Part shown: positions 35,272-42,377 of the stretch, one piece after another
Position numbering within the stretch: the first letter of the stretch is position 1
How the letters are laid out: each line of letters starts with the position of its first letter
NCBI GenBank assembly: GCA_026389335.1
Contig: JAPLIB010000003.1
Location: 1-42,721 of the forward strand
Origin: Cyanobacteriota bacterium
GTDB lineage: Bacteria > Cyanobacteriota > Cyanobacteriia > PCC-6307 > Cyanobiaceae
Reading direction: 5' to 3'
DNA length: 42,721 bases
Notes under the pieces: model-generated
Told to the model about the DNA's origin: nothing
The model's database searches: none
Seen by the model: only the letters and a program-made list of their open reading frames with translations
Program-made: the position numbers and the translations under genes

Positions 35272-35982
35272 TCAGAGCTCGAGCCGCCGCCGCTCCTCCT
35301 GCAACAGGCTGCGGCGGCGCTTGGCTTCGCGCAGCATTTCGCGGCCGTCGTGCAGGTAGCTGTCGACATAGCCCAGCGTGTAACGCTCCAGTTCCCCCAA
35401 GGCATCCTGCACCTGGCTGAGGCAGTGGTAGAGGCTGAGGCCAAAGCCCTGGGCACTGCGGGGGCAGGCCAGCGAGCGATACAGGGTCACCACCTTCTCG
35501 AGGCGCTTCTGGCTCTGCTCGAGGAAGGTGCAGAACACCTCCATCAGGCGATCGTCGTAGGGATCGGCGGAGAGGGCCCGCAGCTGGGCCGGAAAGGGAT
35601 TGATCACCTGGGCCAGCAAGCGATCGATCGGCGCATACACCTGCTGCAACCAAGCCAGCAGCTCTTCGTCGCGGGCGGCGCCCCGGGGGGGACGTGCGCG
35701 ACGAGGAGCTGCAGCACCTGAGGCTGGCCAGTTCCCCTCTGGAGCTGGCCCGCATGCGGCGTCGTAACGGCGCCGGCGCGGTCCATCGCGCAGCACCTCC
35801 CAGGCGGCGTTGAGGGCCAGGATCTGCTGGTCATCCCCTCCCGCATCGGGATGGTGGAGCTTCACCAGGGCCCGATAGGCGGCCTTGATCTGGGCCTCCG
35901 TCGCCAGGGGCGACACCCCCAGAACGGCGTAATGATCAATCCCAGCCGTCTGGGGAGCAAGGCTGCTGCGCTGACCTGACAC
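35272..35982 (-). CDS. J-domain (DnaJ-like) protein
   Basis: 236-residue cochaperone. The J-domain is at about 16-70: DHYAVLGVSPLATEAQIKAAYRALVKLHHPDAGGDDQQ, with the HPD tripeptide at 44-46 that stimulates Hsp70. No Gly/Phe region or zinc finger, so it is a class C type; a basic Arg/Pro-rich linker (about 88-105) leads to a C-terminal helical region (about 105-236) rich in Leu/Glu/Arg. A family restricted to cyanobacteria; client unknown. GTG start. A terminator for the porin lies 67 bp upstream of it, so it has its own promoter. Confidence 0.83.
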   Translation of the reverse strand: MSGQRSSLAPQTAGIDHYAVLGVSPLATEAQIKAAYRALVKLHHPDAGGDDQQILALNAAWEVLRDGPRRRRYDAACGPAPEGNWPASGAAAPRRARPPRGAARDEELLAWLQQVYAPIDRLLAQVINPFPAQLRALSADPYDDRLMEVFCTFLEQSQKRLEKVVTLYRSLACPRSAQGFGLSLYHCLSQVQDALGELERYTLGYVDSYLHDGREMLREAKRRRSLLQEERRRLEL

Positions 35983-36048: not shown

Positions 36049-36074
36049 AAAAAAGCCCCCCGCAAGCGGGGGGC
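36049..36074 (-). terminator. Terminator of the first porin gene
   Basis: On the minus strand GCCCCCCGC and GCGGGGGGC (66-74 and 55-63 of the 360xx bases) form a perfect 9-bp stem around a two-base loop, followed by six T. It lies 74 bp after the porin stop (36148) and ends that transcript. Confidence 0.93.
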
Positions 36075-36147: not shown

Positions 36148-37899
36148 TCAGAACTTGAAGGTGGTCTGAACCAGGGCGCCGAAGGTGCCGAGGTTGTCGC
36201 CACTGCTGAGGTTGGGATCGGCGAGGGTCGCGCTCAGGCTGTTGGTACTGGTCTGCTGACCGCGGGCGCGGGACAGCCAGAAGATGGCCGGAGTGACGGC
36301 GATATTGTCCGTCACCTGGAACTTGTAATAGGCCTCCAGGGCGTAGTTACCGTCGTAGACGTTCAGATCGTCGCCGTTGTAGTTGACGCCGGTGATGAAG
36401 GTGGGCTGACCCACCGCAATGCCGAACGCGTTGCCCTTGGCGAACAGATCCTTCCAGTTCAGACCCACAAACCAGGATTGGCTGGTGGCCGAGTCGAGGG
36501 CAAGGGCCACCGTGGAGGAGGAAGCCGTGTCACCCGTGTAGGAATAGGTGTTGTAGCCCCAGCCAGCGCTGAATGAAGGTGCCCAACCGGACTTGAGTGG
36601 CTGCCAGTAACCGGCCAAGGACCAGGACGACACGTGGCCGCCACCGGTGGTCTTGTAGATGCTGGGCAGCAGGTTCTGGGACAGAGGCGTACCGGCGATG
36701 CCGACACCAGCGCTGTTGTAGGTGTAGGCGCCGGTGAGGTTCCAGCCCTTGCCGGTGTAAGCCAGCTGCAGGGTGCCGCTCTGCTTGGAGGCCTCGTTGC
36801 CGATGCCGCCACAGCCGCCTATGTCGTAGTTGGTGCAACCTTCGCCGTTGGGCTGGCCGCTATCGCCATTGGCGGCGACGTAGACAGCACCGAAGCTGAA
36901 GCCAGTCTTACCGGCTTGTTTCCACCACAGACCGGCACCGGGGCCGAGCAGCTGGCTATAAGCACCAGGAGCACCGTTGAAGTCCCACAGTTTGAGGATC
37001 TTGTCGCCGGTGTAGACGCTGGGCTTGACGGGCAAGCCATCGTCCTGGCGCATGCGGCCACCGATCACGGCGGTGAACTGGGAGCTAACCGGGAACTTGT
37101 AGTACAGGCGGTTGATGGCGACGACATCGCCGCAATCAGTACCGGTGCCGCAACCTTCCTCAAAGGCCGCATCCAGGCTGACCAGCGGCGTGACACTGTT
37201 CTGGCTGCTGAAACCGCTGTCGGCGAAGTTGCCGGCGCGCAGGGTGGTGCGCAGCAAGTCCTTGCCGGTGAAGCTGGTGTCGAAGTTCAGGCGAACGTCG
37301 TAGTTGAAGGTGACGGCGTCACGCAGCTGGGTGTATTTGTACGGCGACGCAACCGTGCCTTTACCACTGGTGGGGGGCTTGTAATTATTGTCGTCACCCA
37401 CCTGGTTGCCGCTGTAGCTGAGGCCACCGACCACCCAGCGGGTGTCAGCGCGCAGCTTGGTGGTGGTGGAGAACTGGGTGGCTTCCAGCTCACCCACCTT
37501 GGCCTCGAGGCGATCAACCCGACCACGCAGCAGGGCGAGCTCCTCCTGGAACTCCTCCATCAGCTTCTTGAGCTCGTCGGTGACCTCAGTGACGCGATCG
37601 AGACAGGCATTGAGCAGGGCGGCCGCTTCGTAGCGGGTCATGGCCTGGCCGCCCTTGAAGGTGCCATTGGGATAGCCGGCAACGCAGCCGTACTGCTCCA
37701 CCAGGTTGGTCAGGGCCTGGTAGGCCCAGTCGGTGGGCTGCACATCAGAGAACTGACTGACGCTGGTGACCTGGGCCGCACTGGCCGTAGGCGCGTAGCG
37801 GTTGACATCGCTGAGATTCAGCTCCGACGCGGAGGCAGCCACAGGGGCAGCCAGGCCAAGCGCCACGGGAGCCAACAACAATTTCTGGAACAGTTTCAT
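36148..37899 (-). CDS. SLH-domain iron-uptake-type porin (Som/OprB family), copy 1
   Basis: 583-residue outer-membrane porin. Signal peptide (KLFQKLLLAPVALGLAAPVAASA, cleavage near 25), SLH domain (about 48-105: QFSDVQPTDWAYQALTNLVEQYGCVAGYPNGTFKGGQAMTRYEAAALL), which anchors to peptidoglycan-bound pyruvylated polymer, a coiled coil (about 105-140), then a 16-18-strand OprB-type barrel to a C-terminal Phe (TTFKF). Such porins pass small solutes and are implicated in iron uptake. Cysteines occur in pairs in loops (CGTGTDCGD). The ATG at 37899 has GAGGA five bases upstream and starts the signal peptide. Next to a close paralogue, it has its own terminator. Confidence 0.94.
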   Translation of the reverse strand: MKLFQKLLLAPVALGLAAPVAASASELNLSDVNRYAPTASAAQVTSVSQFSDVQPTDWAYQALTNLVEQYGCVAGYPNGTFKGGQAMTRYEAAALLNACLDRVTEVTDELKKLMEEFQEELALLRGRVDRLEAKVGELEATQFSTTTKLRADTRWVVGGLSYSGNQVGDDNNYKPPTSGKGTVASPYKYTQLRDAVTFNYDVRLNFDTSFTGKDLLRTTLRAGNFADSGFSSQNSVTPLVSLDAAFEEGCGTGTDCGDVVAINRLYYKFPVSSQFTAVIGGRMRQDDGLPVKPSVYTGDKILKLWDFNGAPGAYSQLLGPGAGLWWKQAGKTGFSFGAVYVAANGDSGQPNGEGCTNYDIGGCGGIGNEASKQSGTLQLAYTGKGWNLTGAYTYNSAGVGIAGTPLSQNLLPSIYKTTGGGHVSSWSLAGYWQPLKSGWAPSFSAGWGYNTYSYTGDTASSSTVALALDSATSQSWFVGLNWKDLFAKGNAFGIAVGQPTFITGVNYNGDDLNVYDGNYALEAYYKFQVTDNIAVTPAIFWLSRARGQQTSTNSLSATLADPNLSSGDNLGTFGALVQTTFKF

Positions 37900-37903
37900 T
37901 TGA

Positions 37904-37912
37904 TCCTCACAC
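37904..37912 (-). promoter_or_regulatory. Yfr1-type sRNA target overlapping the porin 1 ribosome-binding site
   Basis: The minus strand reads GTGTGAGGA immediately before ATCAAATG. It contains the Shine-Dalgarno GAGGA and is complementary to nine of eleven bases of the invariant Yfr1 core ACTCCTCACAC. Yfr1 binding to such sites in som porin mRNAs is established in Prochlorococcus; here it is a prediction. No Yfr1 gene is in this window. Confidence 0.6.
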
Positions 37913-37920
37913 CAAAAAGA

Positions 37921-37940
37921 GGAAGCTTCCCTAGGGAAGC
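37921..37940 (-). promoter_or_regulatory. Two overlapping palindromes in the porin 1 leader
   Basis: GCTTCCCTAGGGAAGC (37925-37940) is a perfect 16-bp palindrome and GGAAGCTTCC (37921-37930) a second that shares six bases, so only one can fold in RNA. The minus-strand hairpin is followed by TTCCTCTTTTTGG, an attenuator-like U-run, then the ribosome-binding site. A possible -10 (TATTAA, 37950-37955) would place the transcript start just before the first palindrome; -35 is unclear. Confidence 0.45.
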
Positions 37941-38253
37941 AATGAGAAGTTAATAGGCCAAGACGACCAGTCCGAGCCCTGTCGATACCCGCCGATGTAT
38001 CCCCCGCGACAGGGCAACCCAAGGGCGGGGCCGGTGAAAGTAGTGGCCAGCCAGCCAGCGGACCAACCCGAGAATTGGCTCCAAAGATTGGGAAAAAGAC
38101 AAGGAGCCACGGGCCTGGAACGTCCCATGCTCAGCTCAGAACAGCCAACCCGCGGCTACACGAATCGGCAGCGGAGGGCCGAACAGTCAGTTATCAGGCC
38201 AGGCACCTGGAAGGCTGGCCAATCATTGACTGGAATTGAGATCAGCAAGCCAG
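37941..38253. other. Upstream region of porin 1 with a bulged hairpin
   Basis: 313 bp with no supported gene between the two porin genes. It holds a long imperfect hairpin: CCCTGTCG 37977-37984 with CGACAGGG 38007-38014, extended by inner ATAC 37985-37988 and GTAT 37997-38000, twelve pairs in all with a six-base bulge. The promoter of porin 1 should be here. Nothing else recognised. Confidence 0.5.
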
Positions 38254-38283
38254 AAAAAAGCCCGGCTGCGAGATGCAGCCGGG
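38254..38283 (-). terminator. Terminator of the second porin gene
   Basis: CCCGGCTGC 38261-38269 and GCAGCCGGG 38275-38283 form a perfect 9-bp stem with a five-base loop; on the minus strand six T follow (A-run 38254-38259) after one base. It lies 56 bp after the porin 2 stop. Confidence 0.93.
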
Positions 38284-38339
38284 ACAACGAAGGAGGAGTG
38301 AGTTGAAATGAGTTGGCCGCCGGAGCGGCCGGGCCACAA

Positions 38340-40037
38340 TCAGAACTTGAAGGTGGTCTTGACGATACCGCCAAAGTTGGTTAGGGCAGCGCCGTCGCCA
38401 TTGACATTTGCAGCCTCGTTGGCGCGGTAGCCAACGTTACCCAGCGGGTTGCTGAGGTAGTAGATGGCGGGGGTCACGCTGATGTTGTCGGTGACCTGGA
38501 ACTTGTACCACCACTCCCAGGCGTAGTTGCCATCGTGGGGGGTACGGGAAACGCCATTGTCGCTGCAGACATCGCCGCAACCGGTGATGAAGGTGGGTTC
38601 ACCCACAGCCATACCGAAGGTGTTGCCCTTGATGAAGGCATCAGCCCACTGCAGGCCGACATACCAGGACTGGCTGGTGGGGCCGTCGAAGTTGAAGGCG
38701 TCGTCGTTGAAGTTGTAGGAGTTCAAGCCCCAACCGGTGCTGATCGAGGGGAACCAGCCGCTGTTGGTGGGCTGCCAGTAGCCGCTGATGCCAACGGAGT
38801 TGATCGAGCCGAAGCCGATGTAGTCACCACCGGGGGTTGCGGCCTGGGCGACCACAGCCAGAGGGGTGCCGCTGGCGACGCCGACGCCGTTGCTGTAGTT
38901 ATACGTAGCAGCCAAGCCCCAGTTGGAACCGCCGTACGCCACCTGAACGGTGCCGGTCTCCTGGGAAGCCTCAGTACCGATACCGCCGCAGCTGTTGGTG
39001 TCACCGCCGAGGCAGGGCACGGAGCTGGGGGTGCCACCGTCGCCATTGGCGGCGACGTAGTTAGCGCTGATGCTGAAGTTGCCGCTCTTCCACCACAGAC
39101 CCGCACCTGCACCGAGGTTCAGGTTGTAGGCACCGGGGGCACCGGCGTAGGTGAAGACGTCAAGCACGGTGTCAGCGGGATACACGCTGGGCCACATGGC
39201 CAGCATGTCGTCCTGACGGACACGACCACCGATGGTGGCAGTGAAGTTGGAGCCGATCGGGAACTGGTAGAAGAGGCGGTTGATCGCCACCACGTCACCG
39301 CAATCGATGCCGGTGCCGCAATTCTCCTGGAAGGCAACCTCAAGGGTGTTCAAGCCCTGGATGGCTTGGCCGTTGTTGTCGTAGCCGTAGCCGTTGCCGA
39401 AGGCGGAATCACCGAAGTTGCCGGCGCGCAGGGTGGTGCGCAGCAGGTCCTTACCGGTGAAGCTGGTGTCGAAGTTCAGGCGAACGTCGTAGTTGAAGGA
39501 GGTGGCTCCTTCCTGGGCAGCGGCGTAATCGGAGATCGACCGGTTGCTGCCACCGAAGCTGTTGGCACCCAGCACGAAGGTGGCGACACCCTTCAGCTTG
39601 GTGGTGGTGGAGAACTGGTTGGCTTCCAGCTCACCCACTTTGGCCTCGAGGCCATCGACGCGGCCGCGCAGCACGGCGAGTTCTTTCTCGAACTCAGCCA
39701 TGAGCTTCTTGAGCTCGTCGGTCACTTCGGTGACGCGGTCGAGACATGCGTTCAGCAAGGCAGCCGCTTCATAGCGGGTCATGGCCTGGCCGCCTTTGAA
39801 GGTGCCGTTGGGATAGCCGGCGACGCAGCCGTAGCGCTCAACCAGGTTGGAGAGAGCCTGGTAAGCCCAGTCAGTGGGCTTGACGTCGGAGAACTGGGTG
39901 ACGCTGGTGACCTGGTCCTGGCTGGAGCCGGCGTACTGGCTCAAGTCGGCCAGGTTGAGCTCGGCAGCACCGACGGCCATCGGGGCCAACAGGCCCAGAG
40001 CCGCAGGAGCGACCAGCAGTTGCTGGAAAAGTTTCAT
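38340..40037 (-). CDS. SLH-domain iron-uptake-type porin, copy 2
   Basis: 565-residue paralogue of copy 1 with the same order: signal peptide (KLFQQLLVAPAALGLLAPMAVGA), SLH domain about 49-106, coiled coil, then the OprB-type barrel ending TTFKF. The N-terminal 150 residues are nearly identical to copy 1; the barrel loops diverge, suggesting different solute preference. Paired cysteines again lie in loops (CGTGIDCGD, CLGGDTNSCGG, CGDVC). ATG 40037 has GAGG seven bases upstream. Own terminator and own leader, so the two porins are transcribed separately. Divergent from the GT39/83-like gene by 159 bp. Confidence 0.94.
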   Translation of the reverse strand: MKLFQQLLVAPAALGLLAPMAVGAAELNLADLSQYAGSSQDQVTSVTQFSDVKPTDWAYQALSNLVERYGCVAGYPNGTFKGGQAMTRYEAAALLNACLDRVTEVTDELKKLMAEFEKELAVLRGRVDGLEAKVGELEANQFSTTTKLKGVATFVLGANSFGGSNRSISDYAAAQEGATSFNYDVRLNFDTSFTGKDLLRTTLRAGNFGDSAFGNGYGYDNNGQAIQGLNTLEVAFQENCGTGIDCGDVVAINRLFYQFPIGSNFTATIGGRVRQDDMLAMWPSVYPADTVLDVFTYAGAPGAYNLNLGAGAGLWWKSGNFSISANYVAANGDGGTPSSVPCLGGDTNSCGGIGTEASQETGTVQVAYGGSNWGLAATYNYSNGVGVASGTPLAVVAQAATPGGDYIGFGSINSVGISGYWQPTNSGWFPSISTGWGLNSYNFNDDAFNFDGPTSQSWYVGLQWADAFIKGNTFGMAVGEPTFITGCGDVCSDNGVSRTPHDGNYAWEWWYKFQVTDNISVTPAIYYLSNPLGNVGYRANEAANVNGDGAALTNFGGIVKTTFKF

Positions 40038-40044
40038 GGGGGAA

Positions 40045-40052
40045 CCTCACAC
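40045..40052 (-). promoter_or_regulatory. Yfr1-type sRNA target overlapping the porin 2 ribosome-binding site
   Basis: The minus strand reads GTGTGAGG, containing the Shine-Dalgarno GAGG and complementary to eight contiguous bases of the Yfr1 core. It is the same motif at the same place as in porin 1, although the flanking leader differs. Confidence 0.55.
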
Positions 40053-40057
40053 GTTTT

Positions 40058-40070
40058 GGCGCAATGCGCC
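40058..40070 (-). promoter_or_regulatory. Small hairpin in the porin 2 leader
   Basis: GGCGC 40058-40062 and GCGCC 40066-40070 flank AAT: a perfect 5-bp stem with a 3-base loop, six bases upstream of the GTGTGAGG site. It may expose or protect that site; no direct evidence. Confidence 0.35.
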
Positions 40071-40196: not shown

Positions 40197-42377
40197 ATGC
40201 CTGACAGCTCCGGCCCGCCCCTGACGCCCAGTGGATCCCGGTGGCAGAGGCTGATCTGGTGGCTGTTACTGCTGGCGCTCTGGGCCGGAGCCACCCTGGC
40301 CGATCGGCTCTGGCTCGCCGCCGATGGACGCCTGCCCAGCTGGGATCAGGCCGACTATCTCAACAGTGCCATCGACCATGGCCGTGCCCTCGGCCTGCTG
40401 AGCGGCGGTGGCTGGCAGGGCTGGGGCCAGCTGCTCGATCTCTCGCCCAAGATTCCGCCGCTGGCCTCCCTGATCGACGGCAGCGTCATGGCCCTCAGCG
40501 GCGACACGGCGGATCAGGCCAGCTGGAGCCTGTCGCTCTGGCATGGCCTGCTGCTGCTGGTCGTGGCCTGCTGGGGACGGCAGCTGGGCGGGCGGGGCTT
40601 CGGCCTGCTGGCCGCCACCCTCGTGGCCCTCTGCCCGGCCCTGACGGCCCTGCGGGTGGATTACACCCTCGATGTGCCACTCAGCGCCAGCACCACCCTG
40701 GCCCTGTGGCTGCTGGGCCGCTGGCAGGCCCCGCCCCCCGCTGGTGGGCGCTGGCGGCAGGCCATCCTCGCCGCCCTGGCTTTGGCCGCAGCCCTGCTGG
40801 TGAAACAGAGCGCCCTGCTGCTGGTGGCCCTGCCCAGCCTCTGGGCCGCCCTCCGCGGCCTGGGCCAGCGCCGAAGGCGCCTCCAGGCCCTGGTGGCCCT
40901 GCTGCTCGTGCTGGGCCTGCTGCTGCCCTGGCTGCACCACAACTGGATCACCACCCTGGGGGGCACCAACCGGGCCGTGATCGAATCGGCCGCGGCCGAG
41001 GGCGATCCATCGCCCCTGAGCCTGGCTTCGCTGTTCTGGTATCCGCGGCTCTGGCCCGAGCAGATCGGCCTGCCAATTCTGCTGCCGGCGCTGGCGGGCA
41101 GCCTGCTGGCGCTCTGGCAGGGCCGTCTCTGGCAGAACCATCTCTGGCAGGGCCGCGTCTGGCAGAACCGCGTCTGGCAGAACCGTGGCCAGCTCCAGGG
41201 CCGGCTGCGCCACCCCTTTCAGGCGCTGCCGGCGGACTGGACCTGGCTGATCGGCTGCACCCTGGCCGGCGCCCTGGCCACCACCCTCAGTCCCAACAAA
41301 GACGCCCGTTACATCGCCCCGGTGCTGCCCCTGCTGCTGCTGCTGCTGGCCCGGGGCTGGTGGCAGCTGGGACTGGGATTGGAGCGGCTCTGGGGCCGCG
41401 GCCTGAGTGCCAGCCTGCTCGGCGGCGGCCTGCTGGCGGCTGCCGCCGCCACGGCCCAGGGGGCGGTGGCGGCGATCGAGCGGCCCGAACCCAGCCCGAT
41501 CCCGGCGGTGATCGAGCGGCTGCGGGCCGCGGTGGGCGCTACCCCCACCACGCTGCTGGTGGTGCCAGGCAGCCCCGATCTCAATGAACAGACCGTCTCC
41601 TATTTCGGACGGCTGGGCGGTGGCCGGATTGAAGCCCGCCGGCTCGGCCGCCAGCGCCACGAACATCCCCTGGTGCTGGAGCGCAGCAGCTGGATCCTGC
41701 TGGCCAGCGGCGACCAAGGCACCAATCGCCCGCCGATGCGGGAGTTGAGCCTCAAGGTGCGCCGCGATGGCCGCTTTGTCCAGGTGGGCCGCTGGCCGTG
41801 GAGCGAGGGACGCCGTGTGGAGCTGTGGCAACGGCGGGACGGGGCGGCCCCCCGCTTCGATCCCCAGTTCATCGCCCTGGCGCGGGGGATGGAGCGGGGC
41901 CCCGAGGGCTTGGCGACCCTGTTCGCCCGCATCGGGCCGGAACACCAGCTCGATGGCCACTTTCTCTATCAGCAGCGGGTGCGGGCCTGGGCCCGGCAGC
42001 AGCTGCAGCGGAACCCCGACGACGGCGATGCCCTCTGGTGCCTGGCCCTGCTGGCCACCTTGAACAACAGACCTGGCGAAGCCGAAGGCTGGTACACCCG
42101 GCTCAGCCAGCTGCAGCCCACCAACCCCTGGCCGGCGGCCTATCGGGCGGTGGTGCAGCTGGCCGACTGGCGGCCCGGCGCCGCCGTCGCCGAACTGGAT
42201 CGCGCTCCCGCCATGGTGCGCCGGCAACCGGTGATACGCGCCTTGGCCGATCTGAACGGCGTACTCTCAGGCCGCCTCTGGCGCCTGGGCTCCCTGCGGC
42301 AGCATCTACCCCCGGCCATCAAGGACGTGGTCCAGCGGGTGCAGGCCGGCGCCCACCAACTGGGCCCAGGCGGGTAG
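40197..42377 (+). CDS. GT39/GT83-like polytopic glycosyltransferase
   Basis: 726-residue membrane protein of the dolichyl-phosphate-mannose/ArnT-like superfamily, which transfers sugars from polyprenyl-phosphate donors on the periplasmic side. Early DRLWLAADGRLPSWDQADYLNSA carries the Asp-rich first-loop region typical of the fold (SWDQADY), followed by about ten hydrophobic helices to about 440. The C-terminal part (about 450-726) is soluble with helical, TPR-like repeats (DDGDALWCLALLATLNNRPGEAEGWYTRL). A pentapeptide repeat [LV]WQ[GN][RH] at 306-330 lies in a loop. ATG 40197 begins the N-terminal cytoplasmic tail; the frame is open far upstream antisense to porin 2. Substrate unknown. UppP in this window would serve the same lipid carrier pool. 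Confidence 0.8.
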   Translation: MPDSSGPPLTPSGSRWQRLIWWLLLLALWAGATLADRLWLAADGRLPSWDQADYLNSAIDHGRALGLLSGGGWQGWGQLLDLSPKIPPLASLIDGSVMALSGDTADQASWSLSLWHGLLLLVVACWGRQLGGRGFGLLAATLVALCPALTALRVDYTLDVPLSASTTLALWLLGRWQAPPPAGGRWRQAILAALALAAALLVKQSALLLVALPSLWAALRGLGQRRRRLQALVALLLVLGLLLPWLHHNWITTLGGTNRAVIESAAAEGDPSPLSLASLFWYPRLWPEQIGLPILLPALAGSLLALWQGRLWQNHLWQGRVWQNRVWQNRGQLQGRLRHPFQALPADWTWLIGCTLAGALATTLSPNKDARYIAPVLPLLLLLLARGWWQLGLGLERLWGRGLSASLLGGGLLAAAAATAQGAVAAIERPEPSPIPAVIERLRAAVGATPTTLLVVPGSPDLNEQTVSYFGRLGGGRIEARRLGRQRHEHPLVLERSSWILLASGDQGTNRPPMRELSLKVRRDGRFVQVGRWPWSEGRRVELWQRRDGAAPRFDPQFIALARGMERGPEGLATLFARIGPEHQLDGHFLYQQRVRAWARQQLQRNPDDGDALWCLALLATLNNRPGEAEGWYTRLSQLQPTNPWPAAYRAVVQLADWRPGAAVAELDRAPAMVRRQPVIRALADLNGVLSGRLWRLGSLRQHLPPAIKDVVQRVQAGAHQLGPGG
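41112..41186 (+). repeat. 15-bp tandem repeat, five units, in the glycosyltransferase
   Basis: Five 15-bp units (41112-41126 to 41172-41186) encode LWQGR, LWQNH, LWQGR, VWQNR, VWQNR. The core CTGGCAG is invariant. In frame, in a loop between predicted helices; strongly basic and aromatic. Confidence 0.95.

Follow-up and report, generated by a model that had tools for sequence, protein, structure and literature searches.

The porin locus and its predicted Yfr1 sites

We have analyzed a stretch of 42,721 nucleotides (hereafter the window; positions 1 to 42,721 of contig JAPLIB010000003.1) from a cyanobacterial genome of the family Cyanobiaceae that comprises 4.05 Mb in 171 contigs. The window contains two tandem porin genes on the minus strand, and the leader of each carries a predicted pairing site for the small RNA (sRNA) Yfr1 that overlaps the Shine-Dalgarno sequence (SD). 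The features on which the argument rests are the following.

36148..37899, minus strand: porin 1, 583 amino acids, SLH and OprB domains, SomB-type (open reading frame, Pfam and NCBIfam)
38340..40037, minus strand: porin 2, 565 amino acids, SLH and OprB domains, SomB-type (open reading frame, Pfam and NCBIfam)
37904..37913, minus strand: predicted Yfr1 pairing site of porin 1, GGTGTGAGGA, 10 bp with Yfr1 UCCUCACACC, overlaps the SD
40045..40052, minus strand: predicted Yfr1 pairing site of porin 2, GTGTGAGG, 8 bp, overlaps the SD
3254..3310 of contig C71 of the same genome (G000), minus strand: yfr1, RF01116 with the exact core

The assignment of the porins to the SomB type follows from their scores against the NCBIfam model NF033921 (por_somb; cut-off 100), which amount to 281.6 bits for porin 1 and 276.9 bits for porin 2. 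The two proteins are 63% identical. The motif GTGTGAGGA (37904-37912, minus strand) ends 4 bases 5' of the ATG of porin 1, in the arrangement GGTGTGAGGA-TCAA-ATG, and GTGTGAGG (40045-40052, minus strand) ends 7 bases 5' of the ATG of porin 2, in the arrangement GTGTGAGG-TTCCCCC-ATG. An earlier inspection of the letters, to which we refer as the sequence-only reading, had placed such motifs over the SD of both porins, and was correct in both coordinates and strand. The 8-mer GTGTGAGG as such is not rare, as it occurs twice in the window against 1.58 times expected by chance. Genome-wide, the pattern GTGTGAGG-N(3-10)-ATG has seven matches, versus one for a reversed-pattern control. Two of the seven are the porins of the window, four lie before open frames of just 8-114 codons (for which no family search was made) and one lies within a longer frame. 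What is notable about the 8-mer is thus its placement on the start sites of two paralogues and not its frequency.

Yfr1 and Yfr2 in the host genome

The 11-nt core of Yfr1, ACTCCTCACAC, was found twice in the genome. One copy is yfr1, the gene on whose presence the sequence-only reading depended: it scores 65.8 bits with the RF01116 covariance model (cut-off 38) and has the exact core, which is unpaired between two stem-loops in both the alignment and the minimum-free-energy (MFE) fold. The gene lies between guaB and trxA, as judged by eye and without a family search on the flanks, from a guaB-like frame (L001, 1602-2912, minus strand) on one side and thioredoxin active-site residues on the other. 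The second copy was considered as another sRNA and rejected, as it resides in a short ACTCCTC tandem repeat and has no Rfam match; this repeat (L002, 1500-1530) ends in ACTCCTCACAC and is located near a start codon.

The genome also contains one yfr2 (Cyano-1, RF01701), with a score of 44.3 bits that is over the cut-off. Its sequence GTGAGGAGTG complements positions 0-9 of the Yfr1 core, a complement of 10 nt. Both RNA genes, the sites at the porin starts and their complementarity are therefore present within a single genome. As a separate observation, the genomes of genus g8 (L163, L164, L170 and L173) contain a Yfr2-like RNA that scores below the Rfam cut-off and provides a 14-base perfect complement of an extended Yfr1 core. 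In these genomes the core itself is found, together with a terminator-like stem, at a separate place, although RF01116 gives no match.

Conservation of the site within the family

To describe the conservation, we used 76 loci from relatives, taken from the best 80 of 483, a sample that consequently leans to close kin. Together with the host genome these loci yielded 127 porin starts (without the host-genome loci L016 and L017 and six open reading frames whose start could not be placed). Among the 100 porins with a profile match from residue 1, 97 show GTGTGAGG no more than 40 bases from the start, the three misses being L036, L067 and L074, whereas the motif is found in none of the 27 rows of other porin types.

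The leaders were thinned to less than 70% identity, which left 47, and were anchored on GAGG alone. The four columns of GTGT are then conserved in 46, 47, 47 and 46 of the 47 leaders, and the A that follows in 43. The block that stands out as conserved is GTGTGAGGA, most of the columns around it being close to random: upstream, the columns mostly hold less than 0.5 bit, and the exceptions, in a T-rich stretch, reach 1.16 bit at most. By comparison, GTGT precedes GAGG in 0 of the 44 non-porin open reading frames of the same loci that have GAGG at their start site, a set that includes spurious frames. It had been asked whether relatives keep just GAGG; they do not, as GTGT is as invariant as GAGG within the family.

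The distribution of the motif follows the phylogeny of the porins. On a quick tree of 121 of the 127 rows (those of at least 300 amino acids) the motif requires 5 changes, versus 24.6 when the labels are shuffled, and it is present in the groups of both window porins. RF01116 was found in 49 of 50 genomes with related porin loci (the query covered 50 of the 76 loci, the motif misses L067 and L074 among them). In a draw of 300 genomes from the family it was present in 248, or in 181 of 197 when the good ones are considered.

Two of the collected loci deserve separate mention. The second porin of L091 (near 7600, beside the first) looks like a pseudogene, as its start is broken by an in-frame stop behind MKLFQ and its site is altered to GTGTGAGAT. 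Locus L065 (CALPNT020000072.1) is titled Bifidobacterium breve and contains two cyanobacterial SomB-like porins, the best segment being 88% identical to the query, so that this record is probably mislabelled or contaminated.

Conservation of the site in other families

Outside the family, we studied 24 genomes from 15 other families, with 80 porin upstream regions that form part of the matches listed. The 7-mer GTGTGAG is present in 57 of these 80 regions. For the other 104 7-mers of like composition the mean count is 2.2, with shifted versions of GTGTGAG occupying the three top places. A second method, based on frames placed by hidden Markov model (HMM), gave 49 of 67 regions; the remainder of the 80 could not be placed by HMM or had a frame that ran off the edge, and L262, counted as absent among the 80 as a consequence of a different cutting offset and misframing, is present among the 67. 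At least one motif was found in 13 of the 15 families, the two without being f5 and f13, with one region each.

All 24 genomes match RF01116 (22 over the cut-off) and have the exact core followed by C (24/24). The base before GTGTGAG is G in 48 of the 57 motifs, and this G can pair with the C after the core. As both bases are nearly fixed in these families, covariation between them was dropped as a line of support. In 14 of the 57 motifs the base after GTGTGAG is A or T, i.e. GAGG is gone and the motif is not an SD (leaders of the GTGTGAGTGAGA type); the site hence persists without the SD. For 54 of the 57 motifs an in-frame ATG was found, the first one lying 1-62 nt away (the longest distances may reflect non-ATG starts). 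Conservation beyond what an SD needs is thus observed within the family as well as in most of the other families sampled, in line with the earlier claim that the motif looks selectively kept. Since porins keep the site also where it has ceased to be an SD, the pairing with Yfr1 is probably what is preserved.

In other classes of the same phylum the picture is different: RF01116 was found in none of nine outgroup genomes and the motif in none of their 29 porin regions. These nine were taken from 34 same-phylum genomes, of which the other 25 belong to family f18 and gave no more than weak matches, and the result represents a single phylogenetic contrast with more distant porins and not 29 independent ones.

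Predicted pairing and proposed mechanism

The start regions of porin 1 and porin 2 show contiguous complementarity to the Yfr1 core of 10 and 8 bp, respectively. The predicted dimer with full Yfr1 has a free-energy change (ddG) of -13.0 kcal/mol for porin 1 and -11.3 kcal/mol for porin 2, and of 200 scrambled Yfr1 cores none pairs as well with either leader.

Considering the sequence together with what has been described in related systems, we are confident that both porin leaders represent a Yfr1 pairing site on the ribosome-binding site, by which Yfr1 would repress porin translation and from which Yfr2 would relieve it. The single-stranded linker of Yfr1 (core ACUCCUCACAC) would pair with GGUGUGAGGA at porin 1 over 10 bp, and the same linker core with GUGUGAGG at porin 2 over 8 bp. 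Yfr1 seated on the SD would block the binding of the 30S subunit, and the translation of both porins would be lowered together. Yfr2, of which GUGAGGAGUG complements the Yfr1 core, would titrate Yfr1 and in this way relieve the repression. The formation of the duplexes, the repression and the relief by Yfr2 are what we infer from the published work on Prochlorococcus and Nostoc.

The conservation data allow for a broader interpretation, to which we incline with some reserve: the porin leaders may constitute an ancestral, class-wide target of Yfr1. In that case the placement of GTGTGAG before OprB/SLH porins would predate the split of the families of the Cyanobacteriia and would be independent of the SD, and together with Yfr2 it would account for the ultraconservation of the 11-base core. 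Of the core, positions 3-11 correspond to the porin leaders of this family, 5-11 to those of the others and 0-9 to the Yfr2 of this genome; all 11 bases would then be covered between them. A class-wide porin site would offer a partner for the ultraconserved core of a very widely conserved cyanobacterial sRNA. That 13 of the 15 other families sampled have the site before porins, also in cases where it does not serve as an SD, points to an ancient function of Yfr1, common to these families, in controlling the permeability of the outer membrane.

Contrary evidence and alternative explanations

A number of observations weigh against the proposed control. The whole Yfr1 linker pairs equally well or better with 316 (porin 1) and 2718 (porin 2) of 9478 windows of the same DNA, so that pairing energy, a supporting and not a defining property, does not single out the porin leaders and by itself proves nothing here. 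The weak discrimination is probably caused by the C-run of the linker, which binds G-rich stretches. Duplex energy was accordingly dropped as proof of targeting, and the duplex prediction proposed in the sequence-only reading held in so far as the true core pairs better with both leaders than the scrambled cores do, but not as a means to distinguish them by whole-linker energy. Moreover, when the leaders are folded by MFE the 9-mer is largely paired, the unpaired fraction averaging 0.40. The host genome has further porin-like genes with a placed start (two in L012, one in L013), which have no site, and a divergent paralogue clade of 22 rows on the porin tree is without the motif.

Certain genomes weigh against it as well. 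G025 keeps ACTCCTCACAC between guaB and trxA, yet it has no RF01116 match and the motif is present in none of its three porins. Small genomes without an Rfam Yfr1 (g10 and g39) keep the 8-mer in 7 of 13 porins, counted after removal of duplicate loci, versus 30 of 40 in Yfr1-positive ones (p = 0.18). The difference is significant when the 7 of 13 are compared with all porins of the SomB-type set (97/100); against the better-matched small genomes a loss of the site following the loss of Yfr1 finds no clear support, and this line of evidence was abandoned. When small genomes were compared, the base that follows the Yfr1 core did not covary with the one that precedes GTGT either. Finally, in Nostoc reporters a change of AC in the ACAC half of Yfr1 weakens repression slightly and a change in CCUC strongly (PMC6974561). 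As CCUC outweighs ACAC in Nostoc, the importance of the GTGT half may be smaller than one would expect from its conservation, whereas the conservation observed here suggests that the ACAC part of Yfr1 is under at least equal selection at the porins.

Of the alternative explanations, the one that survives best has a different main binder of the site in place of Yfr1, either a protein or an RNA that shares its core, for instance a Yfr10-like sRNA. The 11-mer core is still present in 13 of 14 examined genomes without an Rfam Yfr1 match, in many of them with a terminator-like stem 3' of the core (the 14 were taken from 52 Rfam-negative genomes; G114, G116, G133 and G135 were picked as absent among the matches listed), and several porins of Yfr1-negative genomes keep the site. 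The cores in the small Yfr1-negative genomes (g10 and g39) look like Yfr10, as judged by resemblance to the published description and not by a model. Yfr10 has been reported in strain SS120, with overlapping target sets (PMC6778093), and the Yfr10-like cores would fit this report if the small genomes belong to that lineage. In addition, protein binding has been named as an alternative for the Yfr1 core (PMC2190773). In the host genome, however, the only core with the structure of Yfr1 is yfr1, the second copy being part of the tandem repeat. Any RNA with the Yfr1 core would act alike, and hence this alternative, which we regard as improbable, changes the actor and not the mechanism.

A second view is that the 8-mer is an SD only, where GAGG is kept for the ribosome and GTGT is incidental or aids initiation. 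The position of GAGG, 3-9 nt from the ATG in the 97 motif leaders of the family, is what this view would predict. Considering the 3' end of the 16S rRNA, GTGT cannot extend the pairing with the anti-SD, and it is nevertheless as invariant as GAGG. Furthermore, it is absent ahead of the other GAGG starts (0/44), and elsewhere GTGTGAG is retained with A or T behind it (14/57) and at ATG distances of 1-62 nt. The invariance of GTGT within the family and the retention of GTGTGAG without a following G outside it led us to reject the SD-only explanation, which is very improbable on these grounds.

Other features of the leaders and the locus

The leaders and their surroundings contain the following additional features.

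37925..37940, minus strand: hairpin upstream of the porin 1 site, GCTTCC-CTAG-GGAAGC
40058..40070, minus strand: hairpin upstream of the porin 2 site, GGCGCATTGCGCC (sequence and fold)
37919..37923, minus strand: TCCTC, possible cis anti-SD of porin 1 only, can form 5 bp with the GAGGA in the site across a loop of 10, exploratory
37947..37952, minus strand: TAACTT, -10-like (TANNNT), 6 nt before the porin 1 hairpin, a putative and not a mapped start
38261..38283, minus strand: terminator-like stem 3' of porin 2, between both porin genes
36055..36074, minus strand: terminator-like stem 3' of porin 1
40197..42374, plus strand: divergent neighbour of the porins, protein with a match to PMT-family mannosyltransferase profiles
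35272..35982, minus strand: neighbour of the porins, DnaJ-domain protein

The results on the leaders given in this section are exploratory. Of 46 thinned leaders, 35 have a perfect stem of at least 5 pairs, closed by a loop of 3-8, on the 5' side of the site. Among those without the GCGC type it is found in 20 of 30, versus 3.1 expected from shuffles, and the stem sequences differ. The claim that the leaders of the two porins otherwise differ consequently applies to their sequence, but not to their architecture, both having a hairpin just 5' of the site. When the leaders are aligned on the start of the hairpin, a -10-like TANNNT is weakly enriched just 5' of it (A in 21/35, T in 23/35), from which it follows that the hairpin may form the 5' start of the porin mRNA. 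The GGCGCATTGCGCC hairpin (40058-40070) is found almost unchanged in many porin 2-type leaders, whereas the stems of other leaders vary, and it may have a second function.

The linker of the leader might also act mainly as a cis switch, with CCUC pairing to GAGG to hide the SD and the motif being conserved for the fold; this is hardly credible, for although 25 of 46 thinned leaders have CCTC on the 5' side of the site (8.6 expected), 22 of these 25 can form five pairs with GAGGA or TGAGG and the distance to GAGG is 9-10 nt in 18 of them, CCTC is absent from porin 2 and from 21 of the 46 leaders, GTGT would lie in or beside the loop and hence be free to vary, and the gain in folding over shuffled linkers is small.

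With respect to transcription, a scan of the porin locus for the sigma-70 consensus revealed no promoters. Each porin has its own terminator-like stem, which fits separate transcription and supports what had been assumed for the two paralogues.

Comparison with known systems

Richter et al. (cited in PMC6778093) reportedly described in 2010 the repression by Yfr1 of the porins PMM1119 and PMM1121 in Prochlorococcus MED4. The situation there is much alike: PMM1119 and PMM1121 are likewise a duplicated porin pair, the sRNA has the same core and Yfr2 is the antagonist. The organism is a different one, and yfr1, yfr2 and the sites of the window are known from sequence. With the PMM1121 leader in E. 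coli, Yfr1 represses 3.8- to 4.7-fold and Yfr2 relieves the repression (PMC6778093), which agrees with the statement in the sequence-only reading that Yfr1 blocks porin translation in Prochlorococcus.

In Nostoc sp. PCC 7120 the pairing likewise involves the conserved Yfr1 core near the start codon. The predicted targets include porins (alr0834, alr4550 and all4499 are predicted Yfr1 targets), and of 11 reporters tested, 10 were lowered by Yfr1 (PMC6974561). That work concerned predictions in heterocystous strains and followed murC and mraY most closely, whereas here the site was traced across 15 other families. To distant strains differing functions of Yfr1 have been ascribed (PMC6974561), and what pairs with its invariant 11-mer was asked already in a study of 2007 (PMC2190773). 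As far as the consulted portions of the main text of the open-licence Yfr1 literature extend (PMC6778093, PMC6974561, PMC2190773, PMC2518516, PMC4086077, PMC6202907 and PMC5069720), a class-wide, SD-independent conservation of the site was not found in it.

More remote is the control of the MicF/OmpF type in enterobacteria. The MicF-type RNA is unrelated to Yfr1. In that system, too, an sRNA inhibits the translation of a porin mRNA (PMC6202907). Both the mechanism and the kind of target are thus already known, being published for the porins of Prochlorococcus and predicted for those of Nostoc, and the locus described here is an added case.
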